Shown piece after piece: positions 11,199 to 52,433 of a DNA stretch of 62,338 nucleotides. The notes below the pieces were generated by a model. The model searched no databases. It was given only the letters and a program-made list of their open reading frames with translations, and was not told the origin of the DNA. The translations under genes were made by a program, and so were the position numbers. The stretch covers positions 1-62,338 of the forward strand of contig NZ_JOEE01000012.1 in assembly GCF_000720925.1 (NCBI RefSeq), in the 5' to 3' direction. Each line of letters begins with the position of its first letter. Within the stretch, counting starts at the first letter, position 1. This stretch comes from Phycicoccus jejuensis. Its GTDB lineage: Bacteria; Actinomycetota; Actinomycetes; Actinomycetales; Dermatophilaceae.

Positions 11199-11275
11199 GC
11201 TGCCACGGCCGTCCGACCGCCCGACCCGTGGCGCAGCGTTTGCGGCGCCGGAGCGCGCGTTGCGACACTCTGCCG

Positions 11276-27120: not shown

Positions 27121-27142
27121 CGGGTCCTCCTCGGTGGGGCGG

Positions 27143-30345: not shown

Positions 30346-30381
30346 GGTCGTCCTGACTGTCGGGGTGGGGACGGATGGACC

Positions 30382-30411
30382 AGCCTGTCGGAGAACCGCT
30401 CCGACCGTCAA
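30382..30411 (-). promoter_or_regulatory. Predicted betB-betA-betT promoter
   Basis: On the minus strand TTGACG (30411-30406) and CAGGCT (30387-30382) are separated by 18 bases, about 40 bases before the betB start. Confidence 0.5.
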
Positions 30412-34593: not shown

Positions 34594-37115
34594 GCCCGCC
34601 CCCGGATCCGCAGGTTCTCGGGGTCGAAGAGCGGGGTCGCGTCGGCCGCGGCGACCGTCACGGGGTAGAGCTCCTCCATGTACGAGACGGCCAGCTGCGT
34701 GCCGACGGTGGCGACCTCCGGCGGGAGGAAGGCCATGAGCACGTGCTTGCCGAGGCTCGGGGCGGAGCCGGCGGTCGTCACGTACGGGTGGCGGCCGTGG
34801 CCGTCGGTCAGCGTGCCACCCTCACGGGTGAGGATCGGCTCGCCGCCGAGCATGTAGCGCTTCACCCCGGACGCCGACGTGTGGTCGTCGACGGTGAGCG
34901 AGCAGAGGACCGCCTTCGGGGCCTCGTCGGCCTGCGCGACCACCGCGTCCTTGCCGACGAAGTCCTGCTCCTTCCACTTCGCCCGCGACATGCCGGTCTC
35001 CATCAGCGTGCGCTCGGTGTCGAGCTCGTAGCCGTAGGCCCGGTAGCCCTTCTCGATCCGGCCGGTCGTGCCGTAGACGCCGATGCCGACGGGCACCATC
35101 CCGAGGGGCGTGCCGGCGTCGAGGAGCCTCTGCCACAGGGCGGCTCCCGCCTCGATGGGCACGTAGAGCTCCCAGCCGAACTCGCCGACGTACGAGATGC
35201 GCGAGGCGAGCACCGACAGCGTCCCGACCTCGATCTCGCGGCAGGTGCCGAAGGCGAAGCCGCCGGGCGAGACGTCGGCGTCGGTGAGGCCGGAGAGGAT
35301 CTCGAGGGCCTTCGGGCCCCAGAGGCCGATCGTCGTCCAGCTCGAGGTGAGGTCGACGACGACCGCGCCGCCGTCCTCGGGCATCCGGTCGGCGAACCAC
35401 TTCTTGTCGGCCATGCCGTGCGCGCCGCCGGTGACGACCCGGAACCGGTCGTGCGCGAGGCGCATCACGGTGAGGTCGGAGCGGAACCCGCCGCGCTCGT
35501 CGAGCACCGGGGTGTAGACGACCCGGCCGATGCGGACGTCGGCCTGCGCCACGATGATCCGCTGCACGGCCTCGAGCGCCCTCGGCCCGACGACGTCGAA
35601 GATCGCGAACGCGGAGAGGTCGACGAGCCCGGCCGCCTCGCGCATCTGCAGGTGCTCGGCGTTGATGATCGGCGACCACCAGCGCGCGTCCCACTCGTGC
35701 TCGCGCGGCATCGTCTGCTCGGGGCCGAACTTCTCGACGAGCCCGGCGTTCGAGGTGTACCAGTGCGGCCGCTCCCAGCCGGCGGTCTCGTGGAAGACCG
35801 CGCCGAGCTCCTTCTGCGAGGCGTGCATCGGCGCGAGGCGGACGTCGCGGTTGCTGCCGTACTGCTCCGCGGGGTGGACGATGCCGTAGGTCTTGATGAA
35901 CGACTCGGACGTGCGTGCCTTGACGTGCGCCCGCGTCTTCTGGTGCGGGTGGAAGCGCGCGATGTCGCTGTGCCCCAGGTCGATCTCGGGGTTGCCGTGG
36001 GTCATCCACTCAGCGACCGCGCGGGCGGTGCCCGGGCCTTCCTTGATCCACACCGCGGCGCACGACCAGAGGCCCTTGACCTCGGGCGTCTCGCCGAGGA
36101 TCGGGTAGCCGTCCGGCGTGAGCGACAGCAGGCCGTTGATGGCGTAGCGGATCTCGGCCCGCTCGTCGCCGAGCAGCTCGGGCATGAGCTCGAGGGCCTG
36201 CTCGAGCTGCGGGTCGAAGTCGTCCTCGGTGAACGGCATCTCGGTGGGGGAGAGCTTGCTCTGCTCGATCGAGGGGATGTCCTCGGGGTCCCAGAGGATC
36301 GCCCGGTGGGCGTACGAGCCGACCTCCATGTCGGAGCCGTGCTGGCGTTCGTAGCAGAACGTGTCCATGTCGCGCACGATCGGGTAGCTGATCTCGCCGG
36401 GCTTCTCGGCGAGCACCTCGCAGGGGCCGACCGAGATCATCTGGTGGACCGCGGGGGTCAGCGGGATGTGCGCGCCGGCCATCCGGGCGATCTTCGGGCT
36501 CCACACGCCGCAGGCGACGACGACGGTCTCGGCCTCGATGCGGCCCTGGGTGGTCTCCACAGCGCGGATGCGGCCGTCGACGACCTCCATCCCGGTCACC
36601 TCGACGTTGGGGACGGTCGTCAGGGCGCCGCGCTCGACGGCGCGCTCGCGCATGATCGTGCCGGCGCGAAGGCTGTCGACGACGCCGACGGTCGGGAACC
36701 AGGCGGCGCCGATGATGACGTCCTTGTCGAGGAAGGGCACCTTCTCGGCGACCTGCTCGGGGGTGACGAGCTCGGCGGGGATGCCCCACGCCTTCGCGCT
36801 GCCCATCCGGCGGCGCAGCTCCTCCATCCGCTCCTCGGTGCGCGCGACCTCGTACCCGCCGGACTCGGTGAAGACCCCGAGCTCCTTGTACTGGCGCATC
36901 GAGTCGAGCGTGATGTCGGCGAACTCGCGCGAGTGGTCGACGGGGAAGATGAAGTTGCTCGCGTGGCCCGTGGAGCCGCCCGGGTTCGGCAGGGGCCCCT
37001 TGTCGAGCTGGACGATGTCGGTCCACCCGAGCTCGGCGAGGTGGTGGACGAGCGAGTTCCCGACGATGCCGGCGCCGATGACGACGCAGCGCGCGGAGGC
37101 GGGGAGAGCGGCCAT
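34590..37115 (-). CDS. Dimethylglycine/sarcosine dehydrogenase-like flavoprotein with GcvT domain
   Basis: An 841-residue two-part enzyme. The N-terminal DAO-type FAD domain (about 8-370) begins CVVIGAGIVGNSLVHHLAELGW. His51 in STGHASNF sits where related dehydrogenases link FAD covalently. The middle and C-terminal parts (about 420-830) are the FAO_M and GcvT-like folate domains, with VSYVGEFGWELYVPIEAG-type and VGKDAVVAQ motifs. Such enzymes oxidise dimethylglycine or sarcosine and give the methyl as 5,10-methylene-THF. Coupling to etfBA shows it is a dehydrogenase rather than an oxygen-using oxidase. Tandem palindromes upstream suggest IclR control. Dimethylglycine is the preferred substrate by context, but sarcosine or another N-methyl amino acid is possible. 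Confidence 0.85.
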   Translation of the reverse strand: MAALPASARCVVIGAGIVGNSLVHHLAELGWTDIVQLDKGPLPNPGGSTGHASNFIFPVDHSREFADITLDSMRQYKELGVFTESGGYEVARTEERMEELRRRMGSAKAWGIPAELVTPEQVAEKVPFLDKDVIIGAAWFPTVGVVDSLRAGTIMRERAVERGALTTVPNVEVTGMEVVDGRIRAVETTQGRIEAETVVVACGVWSPKIARMAGAHIPLTPAVHQMISVGPCEVLAEKPGEISYPIVRDMDTFCYERQHGSDMEVGSYAHRAILWDPEDIPSIEQSKLSPTEMPFTEDDFDPQLEQALELMPELLGDERAEIRYAINGLLSLTPDGYPILGETPEVKGLWSCAAVWIKEGPGTARAVAEWMTHGNPEIDLGHSDIARFHPHQKTRAHVKARTSESFIKTYGIVHPAEQYGSNRDVRLAPMHASQKELGAVFHETAGWERPHWYTSNAGLVEKFGPEQTMPREHEWDARWWSPIINAEHLQMREAAGLVDLSAFAIFDVVGPRALEAVQRIIVAQADVRIGRVVYTPVLDERGGFRSDLTVMRLAHDRFRVVTGGAHGMADKKWFADRMPEDGGAVVVDLTSSWTTIGLWGPKALEILSGLTDADVSPGGFAFGTCREIEVGTLSVLASRISYVGEFGWELYVPIEAGAALWQRLLDAGTPLGMVPVGIGVYGTTGRIEKGYRAYGYELDTERTLMETGMSRAKWKEQDFVGKDAVVAQADEAPKAVLCSLTVDDHTSASGVKRYMLGGEPILTREGGTLTDGHGRHPYVTTAGSAPSLGKHVLMAFLPPEVATVGTQLAVSYMEELYPVTVAAADATPLFDPENLRIRGRA

Positions 37116-37235: not shown

Positions 37236-38855
37236 TCAGACGTCCTGGCGCGCCGCCGGGTGCTCGCGCAGGTGCCGCCGGATCGGCCCCTGGAGGGTCG
37301 ACTCGAAGGTCTCCTGCCGCAGCGCCTTCCACAGCGAGACGCACAGCGCGATGAGCACCATGAGGAACGGGAAGCCGATGATGATGACCCCCGTCTGCAG
37401 CGCCCCGAGCCCGTCCTCGCCGCCGGTGACGAGCAGGACCGTCGCGACCGCGCCGGTCGCGACGCCCCACAAGACGACGAGCGAGCGCCGGGGCTCCTCG
37501 TCTCCGCCCTGGCTGAGCATCCCCATGACGATCGAGGCCGAGTCGGCGCCGGTGACGAAGAAGATGGCGATGAGGAAGACGGCGAGCACGACGGTGACCG
37601 TGGCGAGCGGGTAGGCCCGCAGGGTGCCGAAGAGCGTCGTCTCGAGTCCGGAGTCGACGAGCGCCTTCATGTCCTCGCCCTGGGTCAGCTGGAGGTCGAA
37701 GGCGGCGCCGCCGAGGATCGAGAACCAGACGAACGAGACGAGCGAGGGGATGGCGATGACGAAGACGACGAACTGGCGGATGGTGCGGCCCTTGGAGATG
37801 CGGGCGATGAACATCCCGACGAAGGGGGTCCACGAGACCCACCAGGCCCAGTAGAAGATCGTCCAGCCGTTGAGCCACTCGCCGCCGCCGAAGACGCCGG
37901 TGCGGAAGCTCATCGTCGGCAGGTGCGTCAGGTAGCCGCCGATCGACTCGGTGAAGGTCGAGAGGATGAACACGGTCGGCCCGACGACGAAGAGGAAGAG
38001 GGCGAGCAGCGCGGCGGCGACGGCGTTGGCGTTGGAGAGCCACTTGATGCCGCGGTCGATGCCGCTGACCGCCGAGACGACGAAGCAGAGCGTGAGGACG
38101 GCGATGACGGCGACCGCGGTGGCCGTGCCGTACTCCCGGCCCGAGAAGACGTCGGAGAGGCCGCCGGTGATCTGCAGCGCCCCGAGGCCGAGCGAGGTGG
38201 CCGAGCCGAAGAGGGTCGCGAGGACGGCGAGGGTGTCGATGCCCTTGCCGGCGGCGCCGTCGACGCGGTCGCCGAGCAGCGGCCGGAACGCCGCGCTGAT
38301 GAGGTTGCCCGAGCCCTTGCGGTAGGCGAAGTAGGCGATGGTCAGCCCGATGACGGCGTACATCGACCACGGGTGGACGCCCCAGTGGAAGAACGTGTAC
38401 TCCATCGCGAGGTGCGCGGCCTCGTCGCTGCCCGGCTCGGCGAGCCCGAGCGGTGGCGTGTTGAGGTGGGTGAGCGGCTCCGCGACGCCGTAGAACATCA
38501 GCCCGATGCCCATGCCGGTCGCGAACATCATCGAGACCCACGAGAAGGTCGAGAACTCGGGCACCGAGTCGTCCGGGCCGAGCTTGATGTTGCCGTAGCG
38601 GCTGACGGCGAGGAACGCGCTGAAGACGACGAAGCCGCCGCTGGTCAGGACGAAGAACCAGCCGAAGTTCGTCGTGATCCAGCCGAGGATGCTGCCGCCG
38701 GTCTCGCCGAAGCCCTCGCCGTCGACCGCGCCGTAGACGAGGAAGAGCAGCGAGAGGGTCGCCGCGACCCCGAAGACGACCTTGTCGACGGGGGAGCGCC
38801 GGGGCGGCTCCGGCGCCTGCTCGGTGGTCAGCGGGGGTGGTGTCGTCGTCGCCAT
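37236..38855 (-). CDS. BCCT-family glycine betaine transporter, BetP-like
   Basis: A 539-residue carrier with twelve helices. It keeps the sodium-coupling glycine motif ATGMGIGLMFYGVAEP and the tryptophan motif FYWAWWVSWTPFVGMFIARI, typical of betaine carriers of the BetP/OpuD type. Unlike the BetT-like protein at 25036 its C-terminal tail is short (about 25 residues). The ATG has GAGGGG upstream. Two IclR-type palindromes lie 15-50 bases before it. It would import glycine betaine or dimethylglycine for the catabolic genes around it rather than only for osmoprotection. Confidence 0.88.
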   Translation of the reverse strand: MATTTPPPLTTEQAPEPPRRSPVDKVVFGVAATLSLLFLVYGAVDGEGFGETGGSILGWITTNFGWFFVLTSGGFVVFSAFLAVSRYGNIKLGPDDSVPEFSTFSWVSMMFATGMGIGLMFYGVAEPLTHLNTPPLGLAEPGSDEAAHLAMEYTFFHWGVHPWSMYAVIGLTIAYFAYRKGSGNLISAAFRPLLGDRVDGAAGKGIDTLAVLATLFGSATSLGLGALQITGGLSDVFSGREYGTATAVAVIAVLTLCFVVSAVSGIDRGIKWLSNANAVAAALLALFLFVVGPTVFILSTFTESIGGYLTHLPTMSFRTGVFGGGEWLNGWTIFYWAWWVSWTPFVGMFIARISKGRTIRQFVVFVIAIPSLVSFVWFSILGGAAFDLQLTQGEDMKALVDSGLETTLFGTLRAYPLATVTVVLAVFLIAIFFVTGADSASIVMGMLSQGGDEEPRRSLVVLWGVATGAVATVLLVTGGEDGLGALQTGVIIIGFPFLMVLIALCVSLWKALRQETFESTLQGPIRRHLREHPAARQDV

Positions 38856-38869
38856 GGCCGTGCCCCTCG

Positions 38870-38905
38870 GTTGCGCTGGACGGAACGCTGTGCGCATCGC
38901 ACAAC
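38870..38905 (-). promoter_or_regulatory. Tandem operator of the predicted IclR regulon, upstream of the BetP-like carrier
   Basis: GTTGC-GCTGGAC-GGAAC at 38870-38886 and TGTGC-GCATCGC-ACAAC at 38889-38905, centres 19 bases apart. Both sites depart by one or more bases from the symmetric form. Confidence 0.6.
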
Positions 38906-38997: not shown

Positions 38998-39972
38998 TCA
39001 GGACAGCCAGGCGGCGACCTTGTCGGGGTTGGCCTCGACCCACTTCTTCGCCGCGTCGTCAGGACTCATGTTCTGGTTGGCGATCATCTCCGAGACGGCG
39101 TTCTGGTCGTCGTTGGTCCACTGGAACTTCTTGATGAGGTCCACTGCGGGAGAACCGGACTCGGCGAACTTCGTCGCGATGAGCTTGTTGAGCGCGTAGG
39201 GCGGGTAGTCGCAGGCGACCTTCTTGGCGTCGGCGTCGCAGCCGTCGGTGTACTCCGGGAGGTTGACCTTGACGAGCTTCATCTCGGAGAAGAACCACTG
39301 CGGGTCGTAGAAGTACGCCAGCAGCGGCGTCTTGTTCTTCTCGGCCTGCCGGAAGCTCGTGATGAGCGCGGCCTCCGAGCCACCGGTCACGACCTTGTAG
39401 TCGAGCTTCAGGTTCGTGACGAGCGCCTCGTCGTTGGTCACGTAGGAGGGGTCGCCGTCGAGGAGCTGGCCCTTGCCGCCGGACTCGGAGGTCTTGAACA
39501 TCGACGCGTACTTGTTGAGGTTCTTCCAGTCGGTGATGTCCGGGTACTTCTCGGCCATCCACGGCGGCACGTACCAGCCGATGATCCCCTGGTTGCCGGT
39601 GAGGCCGGCGTCCTGGACGGTCTTCTGCTCGTCGACGTACTTCTTCGTGAGGTCGGCGTGGCCCCAGTTCTCGACGATGGTGTCGATCGACCCGGAGGCC
39701 ATGCCCTGCCAGCCGACCTCCTCCTTGACGTCGGGGTAGGTGACCTTGCAGCCGAGCTTGGTCTGTGCGACGTAGCCGATGACGTGGGCGTTGCTCACGT
39801 ACCCCGTCCACGGGTTGACGGCGATGCGCAGGTCGCCGCACTCCTTGCCGCCCCCGCCGGCGGACCCGGAGGCGCTCGGCTGCTCGATGTTGCCGCCGCC
39901 GCAGGCGCTCAGCCCGAGGGCGAGGGCGGCGGTGGCCGCGACCAGCGCGGTCCGGTGGGTTGCTCGTGCCAT
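38998..39972 (-). CDS. Glycine betaine/proline-type ABC transporter substrate-binding lipoprotein
   Basis: A 324-residue OpuAC/ProX-family binding protein. Signal and lipobox: LVAATAALALGLSACGGG, lipidated at Cys24. The mature part shows LRIAVNPWTGYVSNAHVIGYVAQ, GWQGMASGSIDTIVENWGHADL and several Trp/Tyr (GWYVPPWM, YFYDPQWFF) suited to the aromatic box that holds trimethylammonium groups. AGGAGAGAGG precedes the ATG. Last gene of the ATPase-permease-binding protein operon. Confidence 0.92.
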   Translation of the reverse strand: MARATHRTALVAATAALALGLSACGGGNIEQPSASGSAGGGGKECGDLRIAVNPWTGYVSNAHVIGYVAQTKLGCKVTYPDVKEEVGWQGMASGSIDTIVENWGHADLTKKYVDEQKTVQDAGLTGNQGIIGWYVPPWMAEKYPDITDWKNLNKYASMFKTSESGGKGQLLDGDPSYVTNDEALVTNLKLDYKVVTGGSEAALITSFRQAEKNKTPLLAYFYDPQWFFSEMKLVKVNLPEYTDGCDADAKKVACDYPPYALNKLIATKFAESGSPAVDLIKKFQWTNDDQNAVSEMIANQNMSPDDAAKKWVEANPDKVAAWLS

Positions 39973-40028
39973 GGGCTGGACCTCTCTCCTGTCCGCGGTC
40001 GTCCGCGGGTCGTGGTGGGGTGCCCGGC

Positions 40029-42139
40029 TCATCGGCCGAACCGGGCGGCGGCGTGGCGGGCGATGCGGTCGAGCATGATCCCGAGCGCGGTGATGGCGAT
40101 GCCGGCGGCCAGGCCCTTGCCGAAGAGCTGGCCCTGGACGAAGCCCTGGACGATGAGGTAGCCGAGGCTGCCGCCGCCGACCATCCCGCCGATGACGACC
40201 ATCGACAGGACGTAGAGCAGGCCCTGGTTGGTCGCGAGGACGAGGGCCTCGCGGGCCATCGGCAGCTGGACCTTGGAGATCATCTGCCACCGGGTGATCC
40301 CGGTGGAGCGGGCGGCCTCGACGGTGGCCGGCGAGACGCCGCGCACGCCGTCGGCGACGAGCTTGGTCGCGATCGGCACCGCGTAGGCGACGGCGGCCAT
40401 GATCGCCGTGAAGCGGGTCGCCGCGAAGAGCGCCAGCGCCGGCACGAGGTAGACGAACGCGGGGATGGTCTGGAAGCCGTCGAGGAAGGGCCGGATGACG
40501 GTGTCCGCCCGCCGGCCCCGACCCATCGCGACACCGAGCACGACGGCGACGAGCATGACGATGACCGTCGCGACGAGGGTCATCGTCAGGGTGACCATCG
40601 CGTCGTACCAGAGACCGGTGCCGAGGACGACGGCCTCGCAGACGAGGGTGACGACGGCCGGCCGCCAGCCCCCGAGGAGGAACGCGACGGCGAGCAGCAC
40701 GAGGGCCATGACCCACCACGGCAGGTCGGACATCAGCGACTGCAGCGGGTTGAGCATCACGGCCGTCACGAGGTCCTTGAACCCGTTGGTCACGCCGGAG
40801 ATCGCGTCGACGACGGCGTTCGTCAGGTCGTTGATGTGCCCGCCGAGGGGGCCCGCGGTCAGCTCGCCGAGGACCGGGACGCCGGAGAGGTCGGGGAACT
40901 GCGAGAGCTGGAGGTAGCGGGTCGAGTAGTAGGCCCCGACGAGGACGGGCAGCAGGAGCACGGCGAGGACGAGCCGCCGGCCGCTCGGGGTGAGGAAGCG
41001 GCGGTCGGTGCCGCGCCCGCCCTCCTCGGTGGCCCAGCGGGGCAGCTTCTCGAGGACGAGGGTGCGCCCGCCGAAGATGCCGGGGGAGCCGACGGCCGCG
41101 ACCCGCTGGCCCGCGGGGGAGGAGCGCTCGCTCGCTGCGGTCGTCGTGCGGTCGAGCATGATCGCGATGAGGACGATGCCGAGGCCCGCCACCGCGGCGG
41201 CCCCGACGTTGAGGGTCTGCAGGGCGGCGATGACCGGCTTGCCGAGGCCGGGGCCGTTGACGAGCGCCGCGATGGTCGCCATCGACAGCGCCGCCATCGT
41301 GCACTGGTTGATGCCGACGACGATCGTGCGCTTGGCCATCGGCAGCTGGACCTGCCGCAGCAGCTGCCCCTTCGTCACCCCGAGCGAGCGGCCGGCCTCG
41401 ACCGTGTTCTCCGCGACCGAGTTCAGCCCGTGCTCCGTGATGCGGACCAGCGGCGGCAGGGCGTAGACGAGCGTGAGGACGATGGCGCACGCCGGGCCGA
41501 TCCCGAAGAACAGCGCGATCGGCGTGAGGTAGGCGAACGACGGCATCGTCTGCATCGCGTCGAGCACCGGGGTGACGACCGCCGAGGTGCGCCGGCTACG
41601 CGACATCGCGATGCCGAGCGGCAGCCCGACGACCATGCAGATGACGACCGCGACGATGGTGACGATGAGGGTGTCGATGCCGTCGGTCCAGAGGCCGGCG
41701 AGACCGAGGAAGAGCAGGACGACGGTCACGAGGAGCGTCGAGCGCAGCCCGGCGAGCGCGTAGGTGACCCAGGCGGCGAGCAGCAGCACGCCGAACCAGC
41801 CGAGCCAGTCGCCCGGCGTCACCGAGCTGAGGTGCTCCTGGAGCACGCCGACGAACGTGTCGAGCCCGCTCGCGATCGTCCCGAGCACGCCGTGGAAGAA
41901 CCAGTTGTCCTGCCCGAGGAGCTGCACCCGGTCGCGGACGTCGTTGAACCAGTCGTGCAGGCCGGTCGTGTCGGCGTTGGCCAGCTCGAGGGTCTGCCGG
42001 CCGCGCAGGGTGGCCCACGCGAGGACCCAGAGGGCGAGGACGGCCAGCAGCTTGCGCCCGGTGCGGCGCGAGGTCGCGCGCTCGGCGACGGGCTGCGCCT
42101 CCTTCGTCGGGGCCGGACGGGCCGGCTCCAGGGTCGTGG

Positions 42140-42143
<4 letters not shown>
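40029..42143 (-). CDS. Fused double permease of a ProU/OpuA-type betaine ABC transporter
   Basis: A 704-residue permease made of two MetI-like membrane domains in one chain. Each has its own ATPase-contact loop: [18 protein letters not shown] in the first half (about 250) and [18 protein letters not shown] in the second (about 605). Both halves carry [20 protein letters not shown] / [24 protein letters not shown] helices. Usual ProW/OpuAB proteins have one such domain and dimerise, so this is a gene fusion by duplication. The GTG start overlaps the ATPase stop by 4 bases. Confidence 0.9.
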
Positions 42144-43234
<1,091 letters not shown>

Positions 43235-43250
43235 GCTCCACCTCCGCAGA

Positions 43251-43286
43251 GTTGCGCGATGTGCAACACCGCGTGTTCTGCGCAAC
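43251..43286 (-). promoter_or_regulatory. Tandem operator of the predicted IclR regulon, upstream of the betaine ABC operon
   Basis: GTTGC-GCGATGT-GCAAC at 43251-43267 is perfectly symmetric in its 5-base arms. A half-conserved partner, CGCGT-GTTCTGC-GCAAC, lies at 43270-43286, centres 19 bases apart. Confidence 0.7.
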
Positions 43287-43357: not shown

Positions 43358-44140
43358 TCAGCGCTCCACGGGCTGGTGGGCGATCCGGGCCGACGCCTCC
43401 TCGGTCGCGGCGAGGAGCAGCGGGACGAGCTCGTCGACCCGGTCGGCGCCGAAGCGGAAGGTCGGCCCGGAGACGCTGATCGACGCGACGACGTCGCCGT
43501 GGACGTCGCGGACGGGCGCGGCCAGGGCGGTGAGGCCGACGTCGAGCTCGTCGGTCGCGAGGGCCCACCCGCGCTCGCGGACCTCCGCGAGCTGCGCGTC
43601 GAGCACCGCGCGGTCGGTGACGGTCGAGGGCGTGTACGGCGTGAGCTCGCCGAGGGTGCGGGTCAGCTCGGGGTCGTGCTGCTCGCTGACGAGGACCTTG
43701 CCGTTGCTCGTCGCGTGGATCGGGATGTGCTGGCCGACCCAGTTGTACGACGAGAGGGTCGAGGAGCCGGACACCTGGTCGACGTAGAGCGCGGCGCCGC
43801 CCGAGAGCACGGCGAGGTTGACCGTCTCGCCGGTCTCGGAGGCCAGGCGCCGCACGACCGGGCGGGCCTCCTTCGCGAGGTCGAGCCGGGCGTTGGTGGC
43901 CCCGGCGAGCTTGAGCACCCCGACGCCGAGCCGGTAGCGGCCCCGCTCCTCGACCTGCTCGACGAGCCGTCGCCGCTCGAGCGCGGCGACGAGCCGGCTG
44001 GCCGTCGACTTGTGCACCCCGAGCTCGCGGGCCAGCTGCGTCGTCCCGGCCTCGCCGTGCAGGGCCAGCAGCTCGAGGATGGTGACGGCCCGGTCGACGG
44101 ACTGGACGGTCGAGCCGGCGTCCCGCGAGGTGGTGCGCAT
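43358..44140 (-). CDS. IclR-family transcriptional regulator (regulator 1)
   Basis: A 260-residue IclR protein. The N-terminal winged helix (QSVDRAVTILELLALHGEAGTTQLARELGVHKSTASRLVAALERRRLVEQ, about 13-62) is followed by the GAF-like effector domain with ETGETVNLAVLSGGAALYVDQVSG and IHATSNGKVL. It is closest to the ABC operon, and its own start codon lies inside one of the shared palindromes, so autoregulation is likely. Candidate effectors are betaine, dimethylglycine or a related compound. It is my candidate for the protein that binds the sites found at five promoters. Confidence 0.88.
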   Translation of the reverse strand: MRTTSRDAGSTVQSVDRAVTILELLALHGEAGTTQLARELGVHKSTASRLVAALERRRLVEQVEERGRYRLGVGVLKLAGATNARLDLAKEARPVVRRLASETGETVNLAVLSGGAALYVDQVSGSSTLSSYNWVGQHIPIHATSNGKVLVSEQHDPELTRTLGELTPYTPSTVTDRAVLDAQLAEVRERGWALATDELDVGLTALAAPVRDVHGDVVASISVSGPTFRFGADRVDELVPLLLAATEEASARIAHQPVER

Positions 44141-44186: not shown

Positions 44187-45626
44187 TCAGTCGCCGAGCT
44201 CGCGCCGGCGCCGCACGACGTACTCCTCGAGCTCGGCGCGCACGGCCTCGTCGAGCGCCGGCTGCTCGTACTCCTCGAGGCGCTTGCGCCAGATCGCCTG
44301 CGCGCGCGTCGCCGTGTCCTGCGCCCCGTTGCGCATCCAGCGCTCGTAGTTCTCCGAGGAGTTGAGGAACGGCCGGTAGAAGCAGGTCCGGAAGCGCTCC
44401 ATCGTGTGCATCGAGCCGAGGAAGTGCCCGCCGTGCCCGACCTCCTGGTGGGCGTCGAAGCCGAGCGAGCCCTCGTCGATCTCGAGGGGCGTGAACTCGT
44501 GCTGGAGCATCTCGACGATCTGGCAGTCGATGACGAACTTCTCGAAGCCCGCGACGAGGCCGCCCTCGAGCCAGCCGGCGCTGTGCATCACCCAGTTCGT
44601 GCCCGCGAGGAAGGTCGGGAGCAGCGTCATCAGGGCCTCGTAGCCGGCCTGTGCGTCCGGTACCTGCGAGGACGTGAGGCCGCCACCGGTGCGGAACGGC
44701 AGGTTGAAGTGGCGGGCGATCTGGCCGGTGCACAGCAGGCCGATGCCCGACTCGGGCGTGCCGAACGTCGGTGAGCCCGACTGCATGTCGATGTTCGAGA
44801 GGAACGAGCCGAAGATGACCGGGCAGCCCGGGCGGATCAGCTGCGCGAGGGCGATGCCCGACAGCGCCTCGGCGATCTGCTGGACGAGCGCCGCCGGGAT
44901 GGTGACCGGCGACATCGCCCCCATGAGGATGAACGGCGTGAGGACGACGGGCTGCGCGGCCGCGGCGTACTCGAAGAGCGCGTCGAGCATCCGGTCGTCC
45001 CAGCGCAGCGGGCTGTTGCAGTTGACGAGGCTGATGCTGACCGGCGTCCGCTCGATGGCCTCGCGCCCGCCGAAGAGGATCTCGGACATCGCGATGACGT
45101 CGCGGGCGTTCTCGCCGGAGACGACGTTGCCCATGAACACCTTGTCGGTGATGGTCATCAGGGCGTAGGTCATGTCGAGGTGGCGCGAGTCGAGCGGCGC
45201 GTCGTTGGGCTCGCAGACCACGCCGCCCGCGGAGTCGAGCACCGAGAACGACTGCGAGAGACGGGCGAAGTTGCGGTAGTCCTCGAGCGTGCCGTCGCGG
45301 CGCGTCTCGCCCTCGCGGACGAACGGCGGCCCGTACACGGCGCCGAACGCCATCGAGTCACCGCCGATGTGGATGCTCCGCTCGGCGTTGCGCGCCTGGA
45401 CGTCGAACTCGCGCGGCGCCTTCGCCACCTGCTCGAGGACGAACTCGGGGTCGAGGAAGACGGTGTTGTCCTCGACCCGCTGGCCGGCCTGCCGGAACAG
45501 CTCGAGAGCCCGCTCGCTCATGAACTCGACCCCGATCTCGGTGACGAGCCGCCGCCAGCCGGCGTCCAGCTGCGCCATCGCGTCCGCCGAGAGGATCTCG
45601 TAGCGCGGCATCCGGTTCGTGAACAT
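44187..45626 (-). CDS. MttB-superfamily methyltransferase, non-pyrrolysine (glycine betaine:corrinoid methyltransferase candidate)
   Basis: A 479-residue protein of the trimethylamine methyltransferase (MttB) superfamily. Family stretches include GVEFMSERALELFRQAG near 27-43, FVREGETRRDGTLEDY, LLCTGQIARHFNLPFRTGGGLTSSQVPDAQAGYEALM, and GAQDTATRAQAIWRKRLEEYE near the end. The frame runs full length with no internal amber codon, so it lacks pyrrolysine. Such homologues (MtgB and relatives) demethylate quaternary amines like glycine betaine and pass the methyl to a corrinoid protein, encoded divergently here. GGAGG 9 bases before the ATG at 45626 fixes the start. Substrate is inferred from the bet, transporter and dimethylglycine genes around it; carnitine or proline betaine remain possible. 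Confidence 0.82.
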   Translation of the reverse strand: MFTNRMPRYEILSADAMAQLDAGWRRLVTEIGVEFMSERALELFRQAGQRVEDNTVFLDPEFVLEQVAKAPREFDVQARNAERSIHIGGDSMAFGAVYGPPFVREGETRRDGTLEDYRNFARLSQSFSVLDSAGGVVCEPNDAPLDSRHLDMTYALMTITDKVFMGNVVSGENARDVIAMSEILFGGREAIERTPVSISLVNCNSPLRWDDRMLDALFEYAAAAQPVVLTPFILMGAMSPVTIPAALVQQIAEALSGIALAQLIRPGCPVIFGSFLSNIDMQSGSPTFGTPESGIGLLCTGQIARHFNLPFRTGGGLTSSQVPDAQAGYEALMTLLPTFLAGTNWVMHSAGWLEGGLVAGFEKFVIDCQIVEMLQHEFTPLEIDEGSLGFDAHQEVGHGGHFLGSMHTMERFRTCFYRPFLNSSENYERWMRNGAQDTATRAQAIWRKRLEEYEQPALDEAVRAELEEYVVRRRRELGD

Positions 45627-45691
45627 GCGCGTGGGCCTCCACAGGGCAGGACGAGCGTTGACGGTGAGCCGCGCCACATCCTAGCCTCATC

Positions 45692-45714
45692 ATGTGGGCG
45701 CACAAGGCCCACAT
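45692..45714. promoter_or_regulatory. 23-bp palindrome between mttB and the second iclR: candidate operator
   Basis: ATGTGGGC-GCACAAG-GCCCACAT has perfect 8-base arms around a 7-base centre. It lies next to -10-like boxes for both directions (TAGCCT at 45682-45687 on plus; TAGGAT at 45683-45678 on minus), so a bound protein could control the methyltransferase and the corrinoid operon together. Its arms differ from the GTTGC palindromes. Confidence 0.75.
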
Positions 45715-45761
45715 CGTGAGCGGCGACAGACGGTCGCCGCCGCCCTGCGAGAGGACCACCC

Positions 45762-46525
45762 GTGCCGACCCCGCCCCCGACCACCGGGACCCAGTCGATC
45801 GACCGGGCCGCCGACCTCGTCGCCCGGGTGGTCCACGCCGACGGGGGGCTGACGGCCGCGGCGCTCGCGGACTCGACGGGGCTCGCGCGCTCGACCACCT
45901 CGCGGCTGCTCGCCGCGCTGGAGCGGGCCGACCTGCTCGCGCGGGACGACACCGGCTCGTGGGCCCCCGGCCCGCTGTTCGACCTCTACGCGACCCGGCG
46001 CACCGGCGACGAGGTGCTCGCGGAGGTCGCCGGCCCGACGATGCGCGAGCTCGGCGAGATCACCGGCGAGACGGTGAACCTCGGCGTGCCGCGCCGGGGC
46101 ACGGTCGTGCAGGTGGCGCAGGTCGACTCCTCGTACTACCTCGGCTCGCGCGACTGGGTCGGCACCGACGTGCCCGCCCACGCCTCCGCGCTCGGCAAGA
46201 TCCTCTACGCCCACGGCGCGCTGCCCGTGCCCTCCGGCCCCCTCGACCCGCCGGCCCCGGACGCCGTGACCAGCGGCGCCGAGCTCGCCGCGCAGCTGCC
46301 CGGCATCCGCCGCGCCGGCTACGCGACGACCGTCGACGAGCTCGAGCCCGGGCTCACCGGTGTCGCGGCGCCGGTGCGCCACCGCGGGTCGGTCGTCGCC
46401 GCCCTCGGCATCTCGGGACCGACGTCCCGCCTCGTCGGCGACCTCGCGTCGACCGGCGCCCTCGTCGCCACCCACGCCGCGGCCCTGTCCGCCCGGCTCG
46501 AGCACCACCCACACGAAGGAGCGGC

Positions 46526-46529
<4 letters not shown>
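45762..46529 (+). CDS. IclR-family transcriptional regulator (regulator 2)
   Basis: A 255-residue IclR protein. The winged helix reads SIDRAADLVARVVHADGGLTAAALADSTGLARSTTSRLLAALERADLL (about 12-59), and the effector domain has ETVNLGVPRRGTVVQVAQVDSSYYLGSRDW and AHASALGKILYAHG. GTG start with GAGAGGA upstream. It heads the corrinoid operon, overlapping the corrinoid protein gene by 4 bases, and is divergent from the methyltransferase gene, which makes it the likely local regulator through the 23-bp palindrome. Confidence 0.85.
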
Positions 46530-47187
<658 letters not shown>

Positions 47188-47191
<4 letters not shown>

Positions 47192-48081
47192 GCGCCCCGC
47201 TGCGGCACACCGTCCTCCGGTCGGCGACCAAGGAGGTCGTCATCGGTGCGGACAAGCCGTTCTGCGTCATCGGCGAGCGGATCAACCCGACCGGCCGGCC
47301 GGTCTTCCAGGCCGCGCTGCGCGAGGGCGACCTGTCGATCATCGCCAAGGACGTGGCGGCACAGGTCGCGGGCGGGGCCGACGTGCTCGACATCAACATG
47401 GGCGTGCCGCTCACCGACGAGGCGGAGCTGCTGACCAAGGCGATCCAGCTCGTGCAGTCGCTGACCGACCTGCCGGTGTGCATCGACTCCTCGGTGGTCG
47501 AGGCGCTCGAGGCCGGCCTGTCGGTCTACCAGGGCCGCGCGCTCGTCAACTCGATCACCGCCGAGGACGACCGGATGGCCGCCATCCTGCCGCTCGTCAA
47601 GAAGTACGACGCCGCCATCGTCGCGCTGCCGAACGACGAGGACGAGATCCCGATGGAGGCCGAGAAGCGCCTCGCCCTCACCGAGAAGATCGTCCGGGTC
47701 GCGACGCAGGAGTACGGCATCGCGATCGAGGACATCGTCATCGACCCGCTCGCCATGCCGATCGGCGCCGACTCGACGGTCGGTCGGACGACGCTCGAGG
47801 TGATCCGCGGCATCCGCGAGCGGTGGGGCCTCAACACGACGTGCGGCGCCTCGAACGTCAGCTTCGGGATGCCGGGCCGGCACGCCATCAACGCGGCCTG
47901 GCTGCCGCTCGCGATGTCGGCGGGGATGACGAGCGCGATCATGGACGCGCGCACGCCGCACGTCGTCGACGCGGTGCGGGCCTCGGACCTCCTCCTCGGC
48001 AACGACGAGTGGGGCATGTCGTGGATCGGCGCGCACCGGGCCCGGCAGGCGGCGGAGGCGGCGGCCGCCGGGACGGCGTGA
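47188..48081 (+). CDS. Methylcorrinoid:tetrahydrofolate methyltransferase (MtgA/AcsE-like)
   Basis: A 297-residue pterin-binding TIM barrel of the MeTr/MtgA family. It shows FCVIGERINPTGRPVF (25-40), GGADVLDINMGVPLTDE, CIDSSVVEALEAGL, VNSITAE, IVIDPLAMPIGAD and TTCGASNVSFGMPGR, the Asn-rich pterin site. It transfers methyl between corrinoid protein and THF, giving 5-methyl-THF. Compared with dihydropteroate synthase it lacks the sulfa-site loops and has the ERINPTG start of methyltransferases. The GTG start overlaps the corrinoid gene by 4 bases. Confidence 0.92.
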
Positions 48082-50054
48082 CGGGCGAGCGCGGGCCGGA
48101 CCAGCCCTTCGAGGACGTCGTCGAGGACCTGCGACGCGAGGGGCTCCTCGAGCCGCCCGCGCCGCTGACCTCCGACGTCGACGACACCGAGCTCGCCGGA
48201 GCCGGCCGGGTCACGTTGTCCTTCAGCCCGGCCGAGCGCGTCGTCCGTGTGCCGCCGGGGGTGTCGGTGTTCGACGCGGCGTCGTGGAACGGCATCGCCG
48301 TGGACTCGACCTGCGGCGGGCACGGGACCTGCCGCAAGTGCCGGGTCCGGCTCACCCGCGGCACGGCGCCGGTGACCCGGCACGACGTGCGGACCTTCAC
48401 GGCCGACCAGATCCACGACGGCTGGCGCCTCGCGTGCCTCGTCCGCGCGACGCACGACCTCGACGTCGAGGTGCCGCCGCTCGTCACCCGGCCCAAGGCC
48501 TCGACCGTCGGCGTCGGCCGGCAGGTCATCCTGCGGCCGTCGGTGCAGAAGCGCTACGTCGAGCTGACCGAGCCGACGCTCGCCGACCAGCGCACCGACC
48601 TCGCGCGGCTGCGCGACGCCGTCGACGACCTCACCCTGAACCCCGACCTCTACGCGCTGCGCCGGCTGCCGGTCGTGCTGCGGCAGAACGACTTCAAGGT
48701 GACGGCGGTCGTCGTCGACGAGACGCTGGTCGACGTCGAGCCCGGTGACACGACGGGGCGGCGGCACGCCATCGCCTACGACCTCGGCACGACGACGGTC
48801 GTCGCGACGCTGCTCGACCTCGAGACGGGGACGCCGGTCGCGGTGTCGTCGGTGCTCAACCGGCAGCAGCCGTTCGGCGGCGACGTCATCACCCGGATCA
48901 GCGCGACGATGATGGATCCGCAGGCGCTGCCCCGCCTCACCGCGCTCGCCCGCGAGACCCTCGCCGGGCTCGCCGCCGAGGTGTGCGAGGAGGGCGGCGT
49001 CGACCCGGCCGGCGTCTACGAGGTGGCCCTCGCCGGCAACGCGACGATGACCGCGCTCCTGCTCGGCGTCGACCCCGAGCCGCTGGGCGTCGCGCCCTTC
49101 GTCCAGGCGACCGCCGACTGGCCGGTGCTGCTCGCGTCCGACCTCGGGCTCACGCTGCACCCGGGCGCGCGCGCCGTCGTCTTCCCGGCCCTCGGTGCCT
49201 ACGTCGGCGGCGACATCGTCGCCGGGATGCTCGCCAGCGGCCTCGACCGCGACAAGCGGGTCCGGCTGTTCGTCGACGTCGGCACGAACTGCGAGATCGC
49301 GCTGACCGACGGGGAGCGCATCGTCACGACCGCCGCACCCGCCGGGCCGGCGTTCGAGGGCGGCGCCATCCGCTGCGGGATGCGCGCGGCCGACGGGGCG
49401 GTGGAGGTCGTCCGGCTCGACCCCGACGCCGAGGACCCCTCGCTCGCGGTCGCGCTCGGGGTCATCGGCGACGTCGAGGCCCGCGGGGTGTGCGGGTCGG
49501 GGCTCGTCGACGCGGTCGCCGAGCTCGCCCGCGTCGGCCTGCTCGACTCCTCGGGCCGGTTCGTCACCGACGAGCGCGCTGCCGAGCTCGCGCCGGTGCT
49601 CGCCGACCGGATGGCGACGGTGCGCGAGGGGGAGCGGGTCTTCGTCCTGCACCGGCACTCCGCCGACGCGCCCGTCGAGGAGTCGGTCTACCTCTCGCAG
49701 AGGGACGTCCGCGAGCTGCAGTTCGCGAAGGCGGCCATCTCGACCGGCTGGTCGCTGCTGCTCGAGGAGCTCGGGCTCGAGGCGTCCGAGGTGCAGCAGG
49801 TGCTGCTCGCCGGCTCGTTCGGGTCCTACCTCTCGCCGTCGTCCGCGGTCCGCATCGGGCTCGTGCCGAAGCTGTCGGTGCTGCGCATCGTCTCGGCCGG
49901 CAACGTCGCGGGGGAGGGCGCGAAGATGGTGCTGCTGTCGGCCCGGGAGCGGGCCGGTGCCGACGCGCTGCTCGAGGAGGTGCGCTATGTCGAGCTCTCG
50001 GACCGCCCCGACTTCAACGACCGCTTCGTCGACCAGCTCGCCTTCCCCGTCTGA
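48078..50054 (+). CDS. Reductive activator of corrinoid proteins (RACo/RamA-like ASKHA protein, 2Fe-2S)
   Basis: A 658-residue protein. The N-terminal 2Fe-2S ferredoxin domain has Cys79, Cys85 and Cys88 (STCGGHGTCRKC) and Cys120 (RLACLV). A linker leads to an ASKHA ATPase domain: AYDLGTTTVVATLLDL phosphate loop (near 233), NRQQPFGGDVITRI, VDVGTNCEIAL, GGAIRCGMRA and LLAGSFGSYLSP. RACo proteins use ATP to lift Co(II) corrinoid to Co(I) after accidental oxidation. Its presence in an apparently aerobic actinobacterium is notable. The GTG start overlaps the methyltransferase gene, closing a four-gene chain with the regulator, corrinoid protein and methyltransferase. Confidence 0.9.
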   Translation: MTGERGPDQPFEDVVEDLRREGLLEPPAPLTSDVDDTELAGAGRVTLSFSPAERVVRVPPGVSVFDAASWNGIAVDSTCGGHGTCRKCRVRLTRGTAPVTRHDVRTFTADQIHDGWRLACLVRATHDLDVEVPPLVTRPKASTVGVGRQVILRPSVQKRYVELTEPTLADQRTDLARLRDAVDDLTLNPDLYALRRLPVVLRQNDFKVTAVVVDETLVDVEPGDTTGRRHAIAYDLGTTTVVATLLDLETGTPVAVSSVLNRQQPFGGDVITRISATMMDPQALPRLTALARETLAGLAAEVCEEGGVDPAGVYEVALAGNATMTALLLGVDPEPLGVAPFVQATADWPVLLASDLGLTLHPGARAVVFPALGAYVGGDIVAGMLASGLDRDKRVRLFVDVGTNCEIALTDGERIVTTAAPAGPAFEGGAIRCGMRAADGAVEVVRLDPDAEDPSLAVALGVIGDVEARGVCGSGLVDAVAELARVGLLDSSGRFVTDERAAELAPVLADRMATVREGERVFVLHRHSADAPVEESVYLSQRDVRELQFAKAAISTGWSLLLEELGLEASEVQQVLLAGSFGSYLSPSSAVRIGLVPKLSVLRIVSAGNVAGEGAKMVLLSARERAGADALLEEVRYVELSDRPDFNDRFVDQLAFPV

Positions 50055-50667
50055 GGCGCGCGACCCGGGGCGCGTCGCCCTCGTGGCCTGCGGGGCCATC
50101 GCGCAGCCGGCGGCCGAGGCGGCGGCCCGTCACGGGTGGCCGCTCGACGTCCACCCCTTGCCGCCGTTGTTGCACAACCGGCCCGAGCGCATCGCGCCGG
50201 CGGTGGCCGAGGCCGTCGCGGACCTGGGGTCGAGGTACGACCGCGTCGTCGTCGGGTACGCCGACTGCGGCACCTACGGGGCGCTCGACGCGGCCTGTCG
50301 CGAGCTCGGGGTGGAGCGGCTCCCGGGGCTGCACTGCTACGACCTGTTCGCGGGACCGGCGACCGTGGAGGCGCTGTCCGCGGAGGAGCCCGGCACCTAC
50401 CTGCTCACCGACTTCCTCGTGCGGTCCTTCGCGCGGACGGTCGTGCGCGAGCTGGGGCTCGACCGCCATCCCGAGCTGCGCGACGACTACTTCCGCCACT
50501 ACGCGCGCGTCGTCTGGCTCGTGCAGACGCGGGACCCCGCGGAGCAGGCGGAGCTGCGCGGGCTCGCCCAGGAGGCCGCGGAGTCCATCGGCCTGCCGCT
50601 CACGGTGCGGCACACCGGGTCCGGCGGGCTCGAGGCCGCCCTGGCCGCGCTGGTCAGCCCGCGGTGA
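49987..50667 (+). CDS. DUF1638 family protein
   Basis: A 226-residue protein with DUF1638 features: RVALVACGAIAQPAAEA near 33-50, VVVGYADCGTYGALDAAC, and LPGLHCYDLFAGPATVEAL, with conserved Cys in each. DUF1638 genes often accompany corrinoid methyltransferase genes in methanogens and anaerobes; the function is unknown to me. No start codon exists between the activator stop and the conserved region, so translation must begin at the ATG at 49987 inside the activator gene, a 68-base overlap, giving an odd Ser/Thr-rich leader of about 30 residues. The start could also be non-canonical. Confidence 0.75.
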   Translation: MSSSRTAPTSTTASSTSSPSPSEARDPGRVALVACGAIAQPAAEAAARHGWPLDVHPLPPLLHNRPERIAPAVAEAVADLGSRYDRVVVGYADCGTYGALDAACRELGVERLPGLHCYDLFAGPATVEALSAEEPGTYLLTDFLVRSFARTVVRELGLDRHPELRDDYFRHYARVVWLVQTRDPAEQAELRGLAQEAAESIGLPLTVRHTGSGGLEAALAALVSPR

Positions 50668-51547
50668 GCGCGGCGGCCATCGCCCGCAGGTGCGCGGGCG
50701 AGGAGCCGCAGCACGCGCCGACGACGTCGATGCCGAGGTCGCGCAGCTCTCGCGCGTGGTCCGCCATCGCCTCGGGCCCGACGGTGTAGACGAAGCGGTC
50801 GCCGTCGAGCTCCGGCAGCCCGGCGTTGGACTGGGCGACGAGCAGCACCCCGTCCGGCCGCGCGGCCACGAGCTGCTCGGCGATGGTGCGCATCTCGTCC
50901 GGGCCGCGGCCGCAGTTGGCGCCGACCGCGTCGACGCCGTCCGCGGCGAGGGCGGCCACGGCGGCGGCCGGGGTCACGCCCATCATCGTGCGCAGGTTGG
51001 TGTCGAACGACAGCGTGACGACGAGGGGCAGCTCGGGGGCCTCGGCGCGGGCGGCGGCGACGGCGGCGCGTGCCTCCTCGAGGTCGCTCATCGTCTCGAC
51101 GAGGAGCAGGTCGGCGCCGCCGTCGCGCAGGCCGCGGACCTGCTCGGCGAAGAGCTCGCGGGCGGCCTCGGGGGTCAGGGCGCCGAGCGGCTCGAGGAGC
51201 TCGCCGGTGGGGCCGATGTCGCCGGCGACGAGGGCGTCGTGGCGGCGGGCGACGGTGGCGCACAGGGCGGCCGCGGCGCGGTTGACCTCCTCGGCCTGCC
51301 CGGCGAGGCCGTGCTGGGCCAGCCGCGGCTCGGTGGCGCCGAAGGTGTTCGTCGTGAGCAGGCGGGCGCCGGCCACCGCGTACTCCTCGTGAAGGGCGGC
51401 GACCGCGTCGGGGTTCGTGAGGTTCCACGACTCGGCGCACTCGCCCATCGGCAGCCCCCGCTCCTGGAGCAGCCAGCCGTAGCCGCCGTCGGCGATGGCC
51501 GGGCGCCCGGCGAGGAGGGTGGTGAGTCGGTTGGTCACGTCGACCAC
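50654..51547 (-). CDS. Homocysteine S-methyltransferase family protein
   Basis: A 297-residue zinc TIM-barrel of the MmuM/BHMT/MetH-N family. Zinc cysteines are in AVGANCGRGPDEM and VVGACCGSSPAHLRAMA; TTNTFGATEPRL and VAGDIGPTGELLEPLG are family stretches. The N-terminal glycine motif, usually DGAMGTxL or DGGxGTEL, is DGGYGWLLQERG here, a Trp/Leu pair replacing the Thr/Glu. It would methylate homocysteine from betaine or another methyl donor. It is downstream of the MTHFR gene by 19 bases and shares its operator. The GTG at 51547 or at 51538 may be the start. Its 3' end overlaps the convergent DUF1638 gene by 14 bases. Confidence 0.82.
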   Translation of the reverse strand: MVDVTNRLTTLLAGRPAIADGGYGWLLQERGLPMGECAESWNLTNPDAVAALHEEYAVAGARLLTTNTFGATEPRLAQHGLAGQAEEVNRAAAALCATVARRHDALVAGDIGPTGELLEPLGALTPEAARELFAEQVRGLRDGGADLLLVETMSDLEEARAAVAAARAEAPELPLVVTLSFDTNLRTMMGVTPAAAVAALAADGVDAVGANCGRGPDEMRTIAEQLVAARPDGVLLVAQSNAGLPELDGDRFVYTVGPEAMADHARELRDLGIDVVGACCGSSPAHLRAMAAALTAG

Positions 51548-51566: not shown

Positions 51567-52433
51567 TCATCCCGGCGGTCTGACCCGGGCGGACACGGCC
51601 TCGTCGAGCATCCGCCGTCGCCACGACTCGATGACCGCCACCTGGTTGAAGGTGAAGACGTGCAGGCCCTCGATGTCGAGCGCGGGGTTGGCGGCGAGCG
51701 CGGCGACCCGGCTGACGAAGCGGTCGGTCGAGAAGCCGGGGGAGGCGATGCGGGCGAAGACCGACTTCTGCTTGCGCAGGAAGCGCAGCGACTCGCCGAC
51801 GCCGATCTTCGTCGCCATGCCGAGCAGCTTGGTGCGGTCGACCGGCCCGGGGACCCCGACGAGGATCGGCAGGGTGACCCCGCGGCGGCGGACGCGCTCG
51901 GTCCAGGTGCCGAGGTGCTCGGCGTCGAAGGTCATGTTGGACACGACGTGGGTGGCGTAGCGGCGCTTGTCCCACATCGACTGGACGGTGACGTCGTCGT
52001 CGATGCTCGGGTGCGACTCGGGGTAACCGGTGATGCCGACGTGGGTGAAGGGGTGCTCGAGCGCGGCGAGGTCCTGGAGGAGGTCGAGGGCGGAGGTGTA
52101 GTCGCCGGCCGGGGGGTCGGCGTCGCCGCCGGGGACGAACACCGCGGTCACCCCGGCCTCGGCCAGCCGGGAGACGACGTCCTCGAGCTCGGCGCGGCCG
52201 GTGACCATGCGCGCGGCGAGGTGCGGGACGACCCGGTAGCCGGCGGTCGCGAGGGCGACGGAGGTGTCGAGGGTGGCGGCCAGGCCCTTGCTCGGGGCGG
52301 CGGTCACGGTGACGGTGAGGGTGGGGGGCACGTGCTCGAGAACGGCCTCGGTGATCGAGGGAGTGGGCATCACCTCGTAGCGCGCCCCCTCGAGGAGGTG
52401 GGCGAGGGCCACGGTGGGGAGTTCGTTGCTCAT
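51567..52433 (-). CDS. Methylenetetrahydrofolate reductase-family protein
   Basis: A 288-residue TIM-barrel flavoprotein of the MetF family. It shows RYEVMPTPSITEAV, LTVTVTAAPSKGLAATLDTSVALATAGYRVVPHLAARMV, TAVFVPGGDADPPAGDYTSALDLL, HVGITGYPESHPSI and GLHVFTFNQVAVIESWRR. Compared with standard MetF the VT-A-PSKG start and the PESHP motif are those of the short one-domain form. In this setting it may oxidise methyl-THF, made by the corrinoid system, back to methylene-THF, the reverse of its usual role. No ribosome site precedes the ATG; the start lies inside a perfect palindrome. Confidence 0.85.
   Translation of the reverse strand: MSNELPTVALAHLLEGARYEVMPTPSITEAVLEHVPPTLTVTVTAAPSKGLAATLDTSVALATAGYRVVPHLAARMVTGRAELEDVVSRLAEAGVTAVFVPGGDADPPAGDYTSALDLLQDLAALEHPFTHVGITGYPESHPSIDDDVTVQSMWDKRRYATHVVSNMTFDAEHLGTWTERVRRRGVTLPILVGVPGPVDRTKLLGMATKIGVGESLRFLRKQKSVFARIASPGFSTDRFVSRVAALAANPALDIEGLHVFTFNQVAVIESWRRRMLDEAVSARVRPPG

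Follow-up and report, generated by a model that had tools for sequence, protein, structure and literature searches.

Gene content of the corrinoid module

The 62,338-bp stretch of Phycicoccus jejuensis DNA analyzed here (contig NZ_JOEE01000012.1, referred to as the window) carries a set of five genes for corrinoid-dependent methyl transfer, which code for an MttB-superfamily methyltransferase (MttB), a corrinoid protein (MtgC-like), a methyl-tetrahydrofolate (methyl-THF):corrinoid methyltransferase (MtgD-like), a reductive activase (RACo), and a DUF1638 protein. A preliminary description of the same DNA had placed this set at 44187–50667. All five genes are found there, on the strands given in Table 1 and with Pfam matches over the cut-offs. 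The description had also split the module by an IclR regulator and a shared promoter, and the two arms are indeed separated by an IclR gene (IclR_b) and an intergenic region, which spans 135 bp if MttB starts at ATG 45626. It had missed a second IclR gene (IclR_a), and it ended the module too early: the locus runs past 50667 into genes for a homocysteine methyltransferase-type protein and a divergent MTHFR.

MttB belongs to its superfamily by a match above the PF06253 cut-off of 25 bits. Its 479 codons contain no internal stop and no in-frame TAG, hence no pyrrolysine codon, and it scores 285.5 bits against the model for pyrrolysine-containing trimethylamine methyltransferases (TIGR02369, cut-off 525); a pyrrolysine enzyme is thereby ruled out. 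The open reading frame (ORF) extends up to GTG 45677, and ATG 45626 is the likely start because most of the 120 listed homologs have 479 residues and a GGAGG lies upstream. MttB is 44% identical to the protein from Sinorhizobium meliloti (4YYC) and 41% identical to the glycine betaine methyltransferase of Desulfitobacterium hafniense (2QNE). MttB-family matches with a single in-frame TAG, which could be a pyrrolysine codon or a sign of decay, were seen in three other genomes of Actinomycetota (G043, G275, G317).

The genes of the plus-strand arm are densely packed. The stop codon of IclR_b overlaps the start of MtgC (ATGA, 46526), MtgC and MtgD overlap in GTGA at 47188, MtgD and RACo overlap at 48078, and the frames scan cleanly. 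The MtgC-like protein has a B12 cap and a B12-binding domain with D-x-H-x-x-G at residue 102, as proteins of the MtgC/MttC kind do, and stays below the cut-offs of the NCBIfam MtgC models (NF047996, 189 of 370 bits; NF047995, 157 of 310 bits). The MtgD-like protein reaches 322 bits against PRK07535, over the cut-off of 259.

In RACo, the Fer2, linker, middle, and ASKHA parts that characterize RACo/RamA proteins all exceed their Pfam cut-offs. The predicted 2Fe-2S site reads C-x5-C-x2-C, with the fourth cysteine at position 120, and residues 47–653 match 3ZYY at 33% identity; the AcsV model is not reached (423 of 800 bits). Domains and cysteine site support the earlier claim that the module carries its own putative reactivating ATPase.

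The DUF1638 protein scores 81.5 bits against PF07796 (cut-off 27). Its start codon is not fixed, there being no ATG, GTG, or TTG shortly after the RACo stop. Residues C12, H40, D70, G72, and C94 are among those invariant in 14 diverse sequences, and C71 and H93 are likewise invariant in 77 closer ones. The predicted fold is that of a confidently modeled alpha/beta protein without a clear solved relative. DUF1638 accompanies RACo in actinobacteria, in alphaproteobacteria, and on a haloarchaeal plasmid, where both occur together with a corrinoid protein and MtrH.

This plasmid (NZ_CP100467.1 from Halomicrococcus gelatinilyticus) carries the four genes at 1379–13852, adjoining two genes for FAD-dependent oxidoreductases, one of which was scanned and has the domain layout of dimethylglycine dehydrogenase. 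Two PF06253 genes lie elsewhere on the plasmid. The set is possibly a corrinoid demethylase in haloarchaea.

Table 1. Positions of the module, its regulators, and the neighboring genes in the window
Feature	Position	Strand	Domains, models, and remarks
Second BCCT transporter	25036..27222	-	PF02028
BetA-like GMC oxidoreductase	27143..28822	-	PF00732, PF05199; start approximate
BetB-like aldehyde dehydrogenase	28876..30411	-	PF00171
L-serine dehydratase	30530..31918	-	PF03313, PF03315
Electron transfer flavoprotein (ETF) subunits	32867..34593	-	PF01012, PF00766
Dimethylglycine dehydrogenase-type protein	34590..37115	-	DAO + FAO_M + GCV_T
BCCT transporter	37236..38897	-	PF02028
ProV, ProW, ProX-type glycine betaine ABC transporter	38998..43285	-	PF00005, PF00528, PF04069; inner borders approximate
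IclR_a, second IclR-family regulator, before the transporter genes	43358..44140	-	PF01614, PF09339
MttB-superfamily methyltransferase, probable glycine betaine:corrinoid methyltransferase (MtgB-like)	44187..45626	-	PF06253, 632 bits
Conserved palindrome, probable IclR operator between the divergent units	45688..45718	.	half-site CATGATGTGG, 18/20, 11-base spacer
IclR_b, IclR-family regulator, first gene of the plus-strand arm	45762..46529	+	PF01614, PF09339
Corrinoid protein, MtgC-like; overlaps IclR_b stop	46526..47191	+	PF02310, PF02607; DVHDIGKN
Methyl-THF:corrinoid methyltransferase (MtgD/MtgA-like); GTGA overlap	47188..48081	+	PF00809, PRK07535
RACo/RamA-like corrinoid reductive activase, 2Fe-2S + ASKHA domains	48078..50054	+	PF00111, PF17650, PF17651, PF14574
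DUF1638 protein	50056..50667	+	PF07796; ORF opens at 49957
Homocysteine S-methyltransferase-type protein (MtgE- or BHMT-like), convergent with DUF1638	50654..51547	-	PF02574
Divergent MTHFR (MetF2-like)	51567..52433	-	PF02219; TIGR00676, 57 of 293.7 bits

Conservation, probable operator, and lineage

Conservation was assessed in the best 80 of 334 MttB relatives from a scan of GTDB species genomes, all with actinobacterial titles; the counts are of tblastn matches at E 1e-10, with the reading frame of each copy left unexamined. MtgC is matched in 78 loci, MtgD in 75, RACo in 74, DUF1638 in 69, and IclR_b in 78. The six loci lacking RACo (L007, L013, L028, L035, L036, L043) all reach a contig edge first, as do the five that further lack DUF1638 (L014, L024, L030, L039, L070). 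The five-gene set is thus complete in all 69 loci whose contig extends far enough. Neighboring genes are less regular companions (MTHFR 65, ProV 55, BetB 53, dimethylglycine dehydrogenase 27, MtgE 9). Among the ProV matches, 50 show at least 65% identity; the other five (L040, L050, L066, L073, L080), at less than 50%, probably represent different ABC ATPases. The IclR_a matches include some cross-hits on IclR_b. Formyl transferase-domain proteins are encoded between mttB and the IclR_a gene in L011, L037, and L010 (three of the eight related-locus proteins scanned), and two of the three carry an ACT domain, as formyl-THF hydrolase does.

For eight locus genes, the ratio of nonsynonymous to synonymous substitutions (dN/dS) is 0.07–0.25 relative to the nearest relative, L002. 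It is 0.11–0.49 relative to L006, 0.19–0.54 relative to L010, and 0.19–0.82 relative to L011; these higher values peak in IclR_b, and in these three comparisons the synonymous distances are low, in GC-rich DNA. Because the set recurs in related loci and because of the low ratios relative to L002, we regard it as more than a chance assembly.

Ten further stretches were chosen around PF06253 hits in nine other genomes of the phylum. Seven contain the five-gene set (L101, L102, L103, L105, L107, L108, L110), L104 and L106 have MttB without the other four genes, and the contig of L109 ends after MtgC. The distribution is patchy, since PF06253 was matched in 65 of 396 sampled genomes of the phylum and in none of the three listed from the same family.

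The region between mttB and the IclR_b gene was compared in the window and 76 loci. In a motif-free scan of these 77 regions for inverted repeats, versions of CATGATGTGGAAC..GTTCCACATCATG recur; in the window, the longest perfect repeat is a different one, and the copy of the palindrome is imperfect. When scored with half-site CATGATGTGG, 60 of the 77 regions reach at least 17/20 and six stay below 15. None of 20 shuffles of each region reached 17, a control that is somewhat generous because the half-site was derived from palindromes of the same loci. Across the whole 80 loci there are 67 sites with at least 17/20, and the nearest of the compared genes is IclR_b or MttB for 66 of them. The palindrome is a probable operator, to which IclR_b may bind; its TGGAA..TTCCA core presumably resembles the IclR consensus of Escherichia coli.

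Trees of MttB, RACo, MtgC, MtgD, and DUF1638 were computed from 22–33 chosen rows with midpoint roots. Besides the window, the rows come from 11 of the 80 loci, from plasmids, and from the further stretches; Ruegeria pomeroyi and Phaeobacter inhibens are not among them, and MttB (2QNE) and RACo (3ZYY) have one anaerobic row each. All five trees set the window type apart from a second type, made up of the S. meliloti and Paracoccus representatives and, where present, the actinobacterial L101–L108; for DUF1638 the split is weak (76/91). In the MttB tree, L107 falls with the copies from S. meliloti pSymA and Leisingera. L106 and L109, from one genome, fall with the window type. L110 joins the window type in the RACo and DUF1638 trees and the second type in those of MttB and MtgD; together with the haloarchaeal plasmid (L100) it stands outside both types for MtgC, and neither L110 nor L100 has a steady place overall. 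A pairing of the window MttB clade with pSymA, Leisingera, and L107 (95/91) was lost once four long rows were dropped. MttB did not group with a family of other proven chemistry, in a comparison set that is small and does not include carnitine, proline betaine, and other characterized MttB-family enzymes.

Mean identities to the alphaproteobacterial proteins, with L107 counted in the second type, show the same division: 42% for the window type versus 72% for the second type in MtgC, 33% versus 53% in RACo, 44% versus 59% in MttB, 46% versus 60% in MtgD, and 37% versus 46% in DUF1638. The window RACo is about as close to that of Carboxydothermus (33%) as its clade is to alphaproteobacterial RACo. 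Judged from these sequences, the module is a separate actinobacterial lineage beside the S. meliloti/Paracoccus type, a separation for which DUF1638 gives weak support.

The MttB copies of S. meliloti pSymA (L098) and of a Leisingera plasmid (L093) form another subgroup, encoded near FAD-dependent oxidoreductase or hydantoinase-type genes. The stretches fetched for both gave no match to a corrinoid protein or RACo. This subgroup perhaps serves other methylated substrates.

Host context and interpretation

The preliminary description had assigned BetA/BetB, MTHFR, and an ETF-linked dimethylglycine dehydrogenase to the organism; by Pfam, all of them are located in the same island as the module. 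This island reads as a route from choline via betaine and dimethylglycine to serine and pyruvate, with a gap between betaine and dimethylglycine that MttB would fill. The host genome (3.99 Mb in 97 contigs, estimated as 100% complete, with Phycicoccus records as nearest MttB relatives) has one PF06253 gene and a haem-copper oxidase (COX1). A search of it for the Rieske alpha subunit (PF00848) gave no match, hence no GbcA-type oxygenase was found and this candidate was dropped; as a control, the same search matched in four of 14 named genomes. Because no such subunit was found, MttB is the best candidate for a betaine N-demethylase in this host, the substrate being suggested by context.

Beyond three window pieces that match MetH domains, the host encodes a full-length MetH (1720.7 bits, positions 2–1182), one protein over the MetE-type cut-off of PF01717, and a second MTHFR outside the island, just below the cut-off of TIGR00676 (293.4 versus 293.7 bits). 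Names were available for 50 of the 80 loci, which led to 49 carrier genomes of the window lineage. All 49 have MetH matches: 46 have one near-full-length match over the cut-off, G397 has one that exceeds the cut-off and runs from position 301, plus an adjoining piece for the start, and G407 and G434 have adjoining pieces below the cut-off. The module has therefore not displaced MetH, and it looks mainly catabolic in this lineage.

The divergent, short MTHFR is well under the canonical model. By sequence, the nearest solved protein is 7XG9 (100 bits), which we take to be the MetF of Sphingobium SYK-6 that oxidizes methyl-THF from O-demethylation, an assignment that a literature search did not confirm. 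The window enzyme probably runs in the oxidative direction.

We consider it probable that in this aerobe the module serves as a corrinoid-dependent demethylase of glycine betaine with a mainly catabolic role. The betaine would be imported by ProVWX or BCCT transporters, or made from choline by BetA and BetB. MttB, acting as MtgB, would transfer one methyl group to the Co(I) of MtgC, yielding dimethylglycine and methyl-Co(III), and MtgD would pass the methyl group to THF. The divergent MTHFR would convert methyl-THF to methylene-THF, which could feed serine (and then pyruvate via serine dehydratase) or formate, and dimethylglycine would go to the neighboring dehydrogenase. RACo would restore Co(I) that has been oxidized to Co(II), drawing on ATP and its 2Fe-2S cluster, and DUF1638 is proposed as a second reactivation factor. 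IclR_b probably controls both arms from one operator. Methionine can be supplied by the separate full-length MetH and need not come from the module. The THF-linked betaine demethylase with its own reactivator, as first proposed, fits the gene content and the betaine island, the substrate being its conjectural part.

The aerobic setting had been presented as a puzzle, which overstated the case. In aerobes, the cobalamin of MetH likewise passes through Co(I). Aerobic bacteria have already been shown to use the same gene set: MtgBCD with RamA and DUF1638 functions in aerobic marine bacteria (Mausz et al., 2025, PMC12478193), and RamA-like and DUF1638 proteins matter under aerobic conditions (Price et al., 2018, PMC5764234). 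In view of both reports, the idea of a stranded anaerobic system was dropped.

Several points weigh against a catabolic glycine betaine demethylase. The MttB family has several substrates, among them carnitine, gamma-butyrobetaine, and proline betaine (PMC12478193), and sequence alone does not fix one. The adjacent homocysteine methyltransferase-type protein, whose gene is near the module in nine of the 80 loci, could act on betaine directly or join MtgC in methionine formation, and a stand-alone homocysteine-domain match occurs somewhere in the genome in at least 26 of the 49 carriers. A search for CbiC, a marker of cobalamin synthesis, gave no match in the host or in 24 of the 49 carriers, with matches in the other 25; cobalamin would therefore come from outside or from salvage. 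For the function of DUF1638, Price et al. (2018, PMC5764234) offer no proposal. In the literature searched, we found no description of this module from Phycicoccus, Nocardioides, or their relatives, no biochemistry or growth data, and no account of an enzyme for the first betaine demethylation in these organisms.

One alternative is that MtgC, MtgD, and the adjacent MtgE form a split methionine synthase, using methyl groups from methyl-THF or betaine, or that MtgE alone is a BHMT. The top NCBIfam model of the MtgE-like protein is that for betaine-homocysteine methyltransferase (PRK07534), at 264.7 of the 338 bits required. Its score against the MetH model is 174 bits, and it is nearer to the Thermotoga maritima-type MetH (1Q7M, 165.6 bits) than to BHMT (1LT7, 94.1 bits). 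A dual role is on record: R. pomeroyi uses MtgC and MtgD for methionine synthesis as well as for betaine demethylation (PMC12478193). The presence of MetH in the host and in every carrier weakens the idea that the module is the only methionine synthase, and MtgE is a rare neighbor in the related loci. Moreover, Mausz et al. argue that the S. meliloti homologs named Bhmt are MtgE proteins without the betaine-binding residues (PMC12478193), and the same may hold for the window protein. On balance we hold the methionine or BHMT route to be unlikely.

Alternatively, the same machinery might act on a different quaternary amine, such as proline betaine or carnitine, and the host might deal with glycine betaine by another route. 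ProVWX and BCCT transporters can carry other betaines too. Eubacterium members of the MttB family prefer different betaines (PMC12478193, PMC8604678). This is countered by the adjoining genes for the dimethylglycine dehydrogenase-type protein, ETF, BetA, and BetB, and by the negative search for a Rieske-type betaine oxygenase, which make another substrate somewhat harder still to credit.

Co(I) is oxygen-labile, and IclR control could conceivably restrict expression, so the module might be kept for low-oxygen episodes and lie silent or idle under full aeration. Homologous sets are, however, used by R. pomeroyi and by P. inhibens during aerobic growth (PMC12478193 and PMC5764234), and we give this explanation only a small chance; the weak point of our argument is that oxygen-responsive regulators were not searched for. 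A decayed or non-working cluster has next to no standing, since the window holds no sign of it, its frames are open, dN/dS relative to L002 is low, and all spanning loci keep the five genes.

Returning to the catabolic demethylase, what is new here is the separate lineage, the complete sets in 69 of 69 loci, the co-occurrence with MetH in 49 of 49 carriers, and the conserved palindrome; aerobic use was already in print. A wider proposal is put forward tentatively: that aerobic corrinoid betaine demethylases have a second lineage in Actinomycetota, diverged separately, catabolic and apart from methionine synthesis (MetH being retained), in which RACo and DUF1638 together might make low-potential Co(I) chemistry workable in air, with DUF1638, given its invariant Cys and His residues, as an unrecognized partner in reactivation, based on a metal or on thiols. 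As an osmolyte, glycine betaine is very common; the module, being conserved, compact, and B12-dependent, would extend a recently shown marine route to another phylum. What makes it valuable is that the lineage is actinobacterial and separate, coexists with MetH, and has a compact, testable layout; hosts with a separate MetH would offer a system for learning what RACo and DUF1638 do in air.

Comparison with known systems

A close counterpart in component list and predicted chemistry is the MtgBCD(E)/RamA/DUF1638/MetF2 system of R. pomeroyi, which often has betaine genes nearby. All five components of the system described by Mausz et al. (MtgB, MtgC, MtgD, RamA, DUF1638) are present in the window, and the five trees set the window clade apart from the alphaproteobacterial representatives from S. 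meliloti and Paracoccus. The window differs from the marine aerobes in having one compact locus with an IclR gene and in its MetH, which accompanies the module in every carrier searched whereas 108 of 156 marine mtgBCD genomes lack it (PMC12478193). In the same source, Actinomycetota account for 5% of ocean mtgC reads.

The clusters of S. meliloti (L099) and Paracoccus methylovorus (L091) resemble the window in that MttB is divergent from MtgC, DUF1638, MTHFR, MtgD, and RACo. They differ in gene order (MtgC-DUF1638-MTHFR-MtgD-RACo) and in containing an MTHFR C-terminal-domain protein; no such protein was seen beside the window module. The window MTHFR gives no match to the MTHFR of these clusters at E 1e-5.

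The MtgB/MtgC/MtgA system of D. hafniense (2QNE, 9YCE), an anaerobe, performs the same type of methyl transfer from betaine via corrinoid to THF. The solved RACo 3ZYY, which we take to be that of Carboxydothermus serving CoFeSP, has the same layout of 2Fe-2S, linker, middle, and ASKHA domains as the window RACo. The split methionine synthase of P. inhibens shares the pair of RamA-like and DUF1638 proteins for aerobic corrinoid methyl transfer (PMC5764234); that system is biosynthetic, whereas the host of the window module has a full-length MetH.

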